Position numbers and translations under genes: made by a program
Notes under the pieces: generated by a model
The model's database searches: none
The model's input: only the letters and a program-made list of their open reading frames with translations
Told to the model about the DNA's origin: nothing
DNA from: a bacterium
GTDB lineage: Bacteria; Hydrothermota; DG-26; JAUXAN01
DNA length: 64,000 nucleotides
Assembly (NCBI GenBank): GCA_030619885.1
Contig: JAUXAN010000005.1
Location: 17,627 to 81,626 of the forward strand
Reading direction: 5' to 3'
Shown: positions 19,640 to 20,413 of the stretch, in pieces
How the letters are laid out: each line of letters opens with the position of its first letter
Position numbering within the stretch: position 1 is the first letter of the stretch

Positions 19640-19767
19640 AGATTATAAAAAGAATATTGAACCAGTGAACATCTGTGTTAATCTGTCATACGATCTCTAC
19701 GGGTCCGTATGGGCCCGTAGGGGCGTCTAAAAATAGTATCAGTGTCTGAATTGTAGGGTAAGAAAAA
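19640..19767. repeat. Spacer with simple repeat phrases
   Basis: GTGAACACAGATTATAAA... GTGAACATCTGTGTTAATCTGTC and a GGGTCCGTATGGGCCCGTAGGGG stretch lie between RNase H and rnpB. They belong to the dispersed repeat phrases seen elsewhere in the window. Confidence 0.5.
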
Positions 19768-20413
19768 GGATGGAGGAGATCGGGTGATCGCCCCGCACAT
19801 AAGTTGCCTATGTATTACGTTTACTTACTCAAAAGCATGAAAAGTGGAAGACTGTATATAGGTTGCACGGCCAACTTAGAGAAACGCCTTTATCAACATA
19901 ATGAAGGAAAGTCTGCTGCTACAAAGTCAGAAGCTCCGTTTGAATTGATCTACTTTGAGGGTTACAAGTCCAAGAAAGATGCCATATTACGCGAAAGGAG
20001 ATTAAAGCACCATGGTCAAGGTATTAGAAGATTGAGAGAGCGTCTTAAGGAGAGCATCAAGTTAGGCAACTTATGTGCGGGGAGGAAAGTCCGGGCTCCA
20101 CAGGGCAGGGTGCCTTCTAACGGAAGGATTTCGATGTGCAGTCGGAATGGAAAGTGCCACAGAAACGAGACGTCCCTATTCGGGGTCAAGGTGAAACAGT
20201 GAGGTAAGAGCTCACTTTTATCTCTGGTAACAGGGATAGAGGTAAACCCCACCCGGAGCAAGACCAAATAGAGGACATAGGTTGCCCGCCTCAATGGTCC
20301 TCAGGTAGGTCGCACGATCTCACTGGTGACAGTGGGACAAGATTAATGATCACCATCCCGCACATAAATTTATGTGTGGGATACAGAACCCGGCTTACAG
20401 GTCTTCTCCATCT
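19768..20413 (+). ncRNA. rnpB: RNase P RNA with a P3 arm expanded by an ORF
   Basis: This is the catalytic RNA of RNase P, type A. The 5' strand GATGGAGGAGATC pairs with GGTCTTCTCCATC at the 3' end to form P1. The conserved blocks GAGGAAAGTCCGGGCTCC, CACAGGGCAGGGTGCC, GGTAAACCCCACCCGGAGCAAGACCAAATAG and ACAGAACCCGGCTTA are present in order. The total of about 646 nt is far above the usual 350-400. The excess is a 252-nt loop at P3: bases 19791-19810 are perfectly complementary to 20063-20082 (20 bp) and the loop encodes a GIY-YIG protein. A second hairpin built on the same CCGCACATAA word lies near 20355-20385. Confidence 0.93.
19810..20202 (+). CDS. GIY-YIG endonuclease encoded inside RNase P RNA
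   Basis: From ATG 19810 the protein is 130 aa: MYYVYLLKS (first GIY-type strand), GRLYIGCTANLEKRLYQHN (YIG strand and conserved Arg), PFELIYFEGY, SKKDAILRERRLKH; the UPF0213/YhbQ-type single-domain nuclease. The domain ends near residue 85. The frame then reads on through conserved RNase P RNA sequence (GRKVRAPQGRV), so the C-terminus is rRNA-like filler. The start codon sits at the tip of the P3 stem, with no ribosome site, so translation may need unfolding or processing. The known activity of the family is site-specific or structure-specific DNA nicking. Confidence 0.85.
   Translation: MYYVYLLKSMKSGRLYIGCTANLEKRLYQHNEGKSAATKSEAPFELIYFEGYKSKKDAILRERRLKHHGQGIRRLRERLKESIKLGNLCAGRKVRAPQGRVPSNGRISMCSRNGKCHRNETSLFGVKVKQ

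Follow-up and report, generated by a model that had tools for sequence, protein, structure and literature searches.

The rnpB gene of the window

The stretch of DNA analysed here (64,000 nucleotides, the whole of which is called the window) comes from a draft genome of the candidate phylum WOR-3 (Caldifarciminota in NCBI), which comprises 2.46 Mb in 86 contigs, with 97.14% completeness and 2.4% contamination. The phylum was taken from a related genome, in which the sequence of locus L062 is identical to QNBE01000057.1 (L227), a WOR-3 record. The features of interest are as follows (other loci, genomes and contigs are designated with L, G and C numbers).

19768–20413, + strand: rnpB, bacterial class A RNase P RNA (cmscan, RF00010, 230.6 bits), sole copy in the genome
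19768–19781, + strand: 5' strand of P1, paired with 20400–20413 (sequence and MFE fold)
19783–19789 with 20348–20354: P2, read directly from the sequence
19791–20082, + strand: whole GIY-YIG element (292 nt) at the position of P3, with borders common to L048, L164, L188, L232 and L163
19791–19810, + strand: 5' terminal inverted repeat, which is the 5' strand of P3, CCCCGCACATAAGTTGCCTA, perfect complement of 20063–20082 (inverted-repeat test)
19810–20061, + strand: GIY-YIG nuclease domain, 84 amino acids, UPF0213/Slx1-like (Pfam PF01541, E 1.5e-17)
20062–20202, + strand: read-through of the ORF into the 3' strand of P3 and the rnpB core, the in-repeat stop being lost
20063–20082, + strand: 3' terminal inverted repeat, which is the 3' strand of P3, TAGGCAACTTATGTGCGGGG (sequence and inverted-repeat test)
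20357–20380, + strand: P19 hairpin CCCGCACATAAATTTATGTGTGGG, the outer 11 nt of which are shared with the P3 repeat (0 expected by chance)
20400–20413, + strand: 3' strand of P1, paired with 19768–19781

The assignment of rnpB to the class A RNase P RNAs was ascertained with cmscan. The gene matched the full RF00010 model (E 1.2e-73) far above the gathering score of 100, all conserved core blocks are present, and the catalytic core is undisrupted in the covariance-model match. The conserved blocks and the P1 pairing, which a preliminary description had read from the sequence, were confirmed, the pairing by direct reading and in the MFE fold. It is worth noting that cmscan placed P1 and P3 falsely, with a match start at 20024, because the insert displaces P1–P3. 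As also described previously, P3 is a perfect 20-bp stem (19791–19810 with 20063–20082) with a loop of 252 nt, on which the sequence and the fold agree. The fold z-score is −5.4, and all 127 of the 127 pairs of rnpB deprived of the loop recur in silico in the fold of the full-length RNA, where the loop folds separately. We found no group I or group II intron among the Rfam matches of the 64-kb window, in which RF00010 alone reached its gathering score; the ORF does not lie within a self-splicing intron, as had been stated.

A whole-genome search gave one rnpB, so that a second, normal copy elsewhere in the genome, which would have spoken against the original description, was rejected. The genome also possesses the rnpA gene (RNase P protein) and an RNase III gene. 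HARP, the protein-only RNase P, was searched for as a possible backup enzyme and was not found. Since rnpA is present and HARP, the protein-only enzyme covered by the search, is absent, the rnpB of the window most probably provides the functional RNase P RNA of the organism. An assembly or binning artefact, or an rnpB pseudogene with a missed functional copy, could be suspected from the draft state and the contamination of the genome, but is highly improbable: genomes that were sequenced in separate projects (L164, L188, L232, L163 and G031) show this junction as well, one rnpB was found per genome searched, and the core and all helices are intact.

Upstream of rnpB, a palindromic repeat of the GGTCCGTATGGGCCCGTAGGG type occurs at 19699–19725, and similar repeats are found elsewhere in the genome (L055 and L250).

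The element at P3

The ORF and the stem are a single unit, an element of about 290 nt, the terminal inverted repeat of which is the P3 stem itself and which replaces the native P3 hairpin of rnpB. The earlier view of an ORF merely residing in a helix that tolerates extension had to be abandoned on this point. The outer ends of the inverted repeats (about 20 bp) read CCCCGCAC...GTGCGGGG, and the borders (TCG or TTG, then CCC...GGG, then AGGAAAGTCC) are the same in the window, L048, L164, L188, L232 and L163. Such terminal inverted repeats are a property of transposable elements, and no direct repeat occurs at the borders of the window copy.

A bare hairpin with the ends of the element (CCCCGCAC...) stands at P19 of the same gene and is probably the scar of a second element. 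Palindromes like this hairpin amount to a handful elsewhere in the 2.46-Mb genome (control, 0), and a high-copy REP family was rejected from this low number.

The GIY-YIG protein

The ORF begins with the ATG at 19810, at the tip of the stem, and runs to 20202, into conserved RNA sequence, in agreement with the preliminary description. It extends that far because its in-repeat stop is lost (AAG-TTA in the window versus AAA-TAA at the same place in L048, the nearest homologue), and the C-terminal 46 or so amino acids are therefore rnpB read-through, and not part of the domain. Judging from the sequence, the ORF may be at the beginning of decay. The catalytic residues of the protein (Y3, Y5, Y16, G18, R26, H30 and E62) are all present and are invariant in 56 relatives. 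Together with the Pfam match and the alpha/beta fold of the AlphaFold2 model (pLDDT 94), they place the protein in the GIY-YIG superfamily. In Foldseek, the closest structures to the model were Slx1, At-HIGLE and the UPF0213 protein BH0048, I-TevI and UvrC being more distant; by sequence, the closest solved structures are the UPF0213 proteins BH0048 and EF2693.

Comparing the ORFs of the window and L048, both from P3 of WOR-3, we counted 17, 17 and 38 differences at codon positions 1, 2 and 3, respectively, with dN of 0.19–0.27 and dS of 0.67–0.93; dN was smaller than dS by two of three methods, and the remaining method gave no defined dS. These values indicate that the ORF has been kept as a protein. 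Slx1 is a cutter of branched DNA, and it is therefore plausible that the GIY-YIG protein recognizes hairpin or cruciform structures and not an extended sequence.

Copies in other rnpB genes

The window copy is not the lone oddity that it first seemed. Elements with an ORF occur at the identical RNA helix, P3 of rnpB, in unrelated genomes: in Saccharibacteria (L164 and L188), in Berkelbacteria (L232), in Azambacteria (L163, where the element is reversed) and in a second WOR-3 family, L048 being the other WOR-3 copy named above; the copy at L303 and others are decayed. Most Saccharibacteria relatives possess a short P3. Further copies were found in P12 and P13 of rnpB in other WOR-3 (L059/L087, L070/L086, L089 and L090). 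A single rnpB was present in each of the window genome (G000) and the three CPR genomes searched (G147–G149).

The original proposal to look for related rnpB genes with and without the insert was followed by comparing GIY-YIG hits and rnpB hits across 147 WOR-3 genomes and fetching the rnpB regions, and both kinds were found. GIY-YIG ORFs lie within rnpB in G031 (P3), G111 (P12) and G103 (P13), and a decayed one in G105 (P13). In G107, one contig carries rnpB with a decayed ORF in P12 and another one an intact ORF in a P3/P13 deletion copy. L088 (G107, contig C16) is an rnpB pseudogene devoid of the P4–P12 region, another rnpB being located on contig C150 of the same draft; the deletion in L088 apparently arose by recombination between a P3 element and a P13 element. 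In one genus, P12/P13 alleles with short hairpins occur alongside alleles with ORF-less inserts (about 90–230 nt, in P12, P13 or P17), which retain the same ends and ORF fragments. This presence/absence series includes no empty site from a strain near-identical to that of the window.

P3 stands out as a hot spot. Among the rnpB loci compared, the inserts at P3 have constant borders and graded sizes: about 300 nt (the window, L048, L164, L188, L232 and L163), 204 nt (L303, with a truncated ORF), 122 nt (L297), 104 nt (L070), 84 nt (L094), and 67, 64, 63 and 50 nt. In 14 P3 arms, 94% of the cells are paired and two-sided changes are seen at 10 of 14 pairs; the rows having been picked for the presence of a hairpin, which biases the set, this covariation holds within the chosen set.

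The element family in rRNA, tRNA and other loci

More than 60 further loci carry elements of this kind. A GIY-YIG scan of named genomes gave 80 loci, mostly in CPR/Patescibacteria and Omnitrophota, the other hosts being Planctomycetota, Bacteroidota and one Bacillota isolate. In each element, an ORF of 77–88 codons for a GIY-YIG protein stands alone between inverted repeats of about 15–22 bp beginning with CCC(C), and the median element length is 300 nt. Flanking inverted repeats with a score of at least 14 surround 63 of the 117 distinct GIY-YIG ORFs, versus none of about 350 permuted controls, and CCC stands at the outer end of 87% of the arms (background, 5%). About 45 of the 117 ORFs have no clear repeats, some of them being associated with tRNAs in other arrangements. 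Relatives in IMG/VR are distant only, and a viral origin was rejected.

Besides P3, P12 and P13 of rnpB, the copies lie in 16S rRNA (L169, L173, L177 and L223, three 16S copies having one common border), in 23S rRNA (L166, L187 and L225), at the 5' ends of tRNA genes (L182, L190, L202, L212 and others) and at many non-RNA sites. At the tRNA 5' ends, the acceptor stem begins with the GGGG of the repeat, beside a duplicated stretch of the CCCGTAG type. Direct repeats of at least 4 nt border 22 of 67 elements, versus 2.5% in permuted controls; at the non-RNA sites they are mostly 4-nt TNNA sequences (TGAA, TTGA, TCAA and TTTA). The stems of rnpB and rRNA have no direct repeats at the element borders, so that insertion there may differ, proceeding by replacement or gene conversion.

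Several other arrangements were noticed. L225 (Lagierella massiliensis, NZ_CYUO01000004.1) is a cultured isolate with two GIY-YIG ORFs in one 23S rRNA gene. In the window's own genome, a second GIY-YIG ORF (L003, contig C57 near 14543, positions 1430–1930) is flanked on both sides by partial tandem copies of tRNA-Pro(TGG) bearing the palindrome GTCCGTACGGAC in the anticodon region, an arrangement unlike that of the CCCC-ended elements; another one (L004, contig C49) adjoins tRNA-Asn, with CTTCGACTACGCTCGGG-type palindromes between them. At L204 and L215, the GIY-YIG ORF is followed by a tRNA (Ile and Glu, respectively), the 5' portion of which is duplicated ahead of the ORF; this suggests a tRNA-duplicating class of GIY-YIG insertions. 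At L084 (G122, contig C215), the ORF adjoins a group I intron match (103.7 bits).

By a hand tally, 27 of the 28 ORFs in or at RNA genes run in the same direction as the RNA. Strict co-direction was rejected because of the one exception, L163, where the element is antisense at P3, and expression from the host transcript is therefore not obligatory.

These data bear on the proposal that the insert is a homing-like element of rnpB, the selfish, intron-less and fold-preserving aspects of which were retained. In its classical form, the protein would cleave an insert-less rnpB at P3 and spread by allelic conversion only, the repeats being an extended host P3. This model would fit the identical P3 borders across several lineages, the border common to three 16S copies, and the clustering of the P3 proteins in the tree (five sense copies; a value this low arose in 1 of 500 shuffles; alignment of 86 columns). 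We nevertheless consider it unlikely, for the following reasons. First, similar proteins with CCCC-ended repeats are present in many different RNA helices and also outside RNA genes, and the TNNA direct repeats in the latter case speak for integration at new sites, not solely for allelic homing. Second, the rnpB elements do not group in one clade in the free tree. Third, the P3 copy of L163 is inverted. As a constraint to one P3 clade gave an AU p of 0.28, a single origin of the P3 elements is neither shown nor rejected, and we do not claim it; the clustering of P3 proteins across phyla suggested site-specific spread at P3.

A passive, MITE-like hairpin repeat, moved by another transposase or by slippage of replication at palindromes and having captured a GIY-YIG gene, would be in keeping with the small size of the element and with the short ORF-less hairpins that have the same ends. 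ORF-less and hairpin-only remnants are indeed common, but they resemble decay products with ORF fragments. Moreover, the GIY-YIG ORF is the sole gene common to all full-length copies across phyla, its catalytic residues are invariant, and purifying selection was observed in the pair tested (window and L048). This explanation therefore appears improbable.

Proposed model

We propose, with a probability of roughly 0.7, that the window feature belongs to a family of mobile elements of about 300 nt, consisting of a GIY-YIG ORF and inverted repeats that rebuild the host helix. The family is widespread, with copies in hairpins of RNase P RNA, rRNA and tRNA genes and at other sites, and it is apparently undescribed. 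Mobility and RNA processing are inferred as follows. Hairpin-forming or short TNNA targets in DNA would be cut by the nuclease, and strand transfer or repair of the break would copy the element into the site. When the host is an RNA gene, the two repeats would pair in its transcript and replace the host helix, here P3, and RNase P would stay active; with the helix supplied by the inverted repeats, the host RNA retains its fold, as seen in silico, and presumably its function. The insert would be either looped out or, as in 23S rRNA intervening sequences, cut at the 20-bp stem by RNase III, which by analogy would leave a two-piece but folded RNase P RNA. The nuclease would be translated from the strong transcript of the host RNA, which would explain the sense-strand bias. 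With age, copies would shed the ORF and be reduced to short hairpins, a direction that we read into the observed size series.

It is conceivable, with somewhat less than even odds, that these elements are an autonomous class in which a GIY-YIG nuclease replaces the transposase, inserting at hairpins or TNNA sites, with repeats that double as an RNA helix and structured RNAs as safe, highly transcribed homes. The GIY-YIG protein could also be a passenger mobilised by something else.

Comparison with known systems

A survey published in 2024 reported CPR rRNA insertions that contain GIY-YIG ORFs, correspond to no intron and occupy scattered sites (PMC11270868). These insertions, often located at the tops or bases of stem-loops, were judged by the authors to lie outside homing spread (PMC11270868). 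The words "inverted", "palindrom", "RNase P" and "tRNA" were not found in the main text of that survey, beyond which we add the inverted-repeat ends, the direct repeats, further RNA hosts and derivatives lacking the ORF. Within the openly available literature, where absence is no proof, we found no case of a bacterial rnpB host, no inverted-repeat/TNNA anatomy and no family spanning RNA and non-RNA sites. Hence the inverted repeats, the TNNA duplications and the rnpB host appear to be new, whereas GIY-YIG ORFs in CPR rRNA insertions were already known. If our proposal is true, the gene of a catalytic RNA on which tRNA maturation depends can be home to a selfish element that encodes a protein, with no intron involved. 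The proposal would also explain the CPR rRNA insertions left unplaced by the survey (PMC11270868), give a source of some of the helix-length variation in RNase P RNA (P3, P12, P13 and P19), and point to a possible GIY-YIG-based route of DNA mobility.

Similarly to homing endonucleases of the I-TevI type (in group I introns or free-standing), the element has a GIY-YIG catalytic domain and invades conserved RNA genes. Unlike them, it has no intron, ends in inverted repeats and uses several target types, its 84-amino-acid protein has no room for a separate DNA-binding domain, and the predicted fold is nearer to Slx1 and UPF0213 than to I-TevI (Foldseek). With the REP/RAYT and MITE repeats it shares short hairpin derivatives and an autonomous relative, but it differs from REP/RAYT (Y1 transposase) by its GIY-YIG protein, its few copies and its RNA-gene hosts. 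As for UPF0213 (BH0048 and EF2693), the nearest structures by sequence, the present gene differs in lying within a presumed mobile element.

Stem-loop insertions with an ORF are a classical feature of 23S rRNA. The intervening sequence in helix 45 of Coxiella 23S rRNA has an S23p ORF and an inverted-repeat stem of about 28 bp, and is sporadic, with a decaying ORF (PMC4990558). Such intervening sequences are thought to be horizontally spread and are excised by RNase III (PMC4990558). The element of the window resembles them (PMC4990558) as an ORF-bearing insert with an inverted-repeat stem, here the perfect 20-bp stem replacing P3, at a helix of an essential RNA. It differs from them in that its ORF encodes a GIY-YIG protein instead of S23p, its host is rnpB instead of 23S rRNA, and its family extends to 16S rRNA, tRNA and non-RNA hosts, with TNNA repeats.
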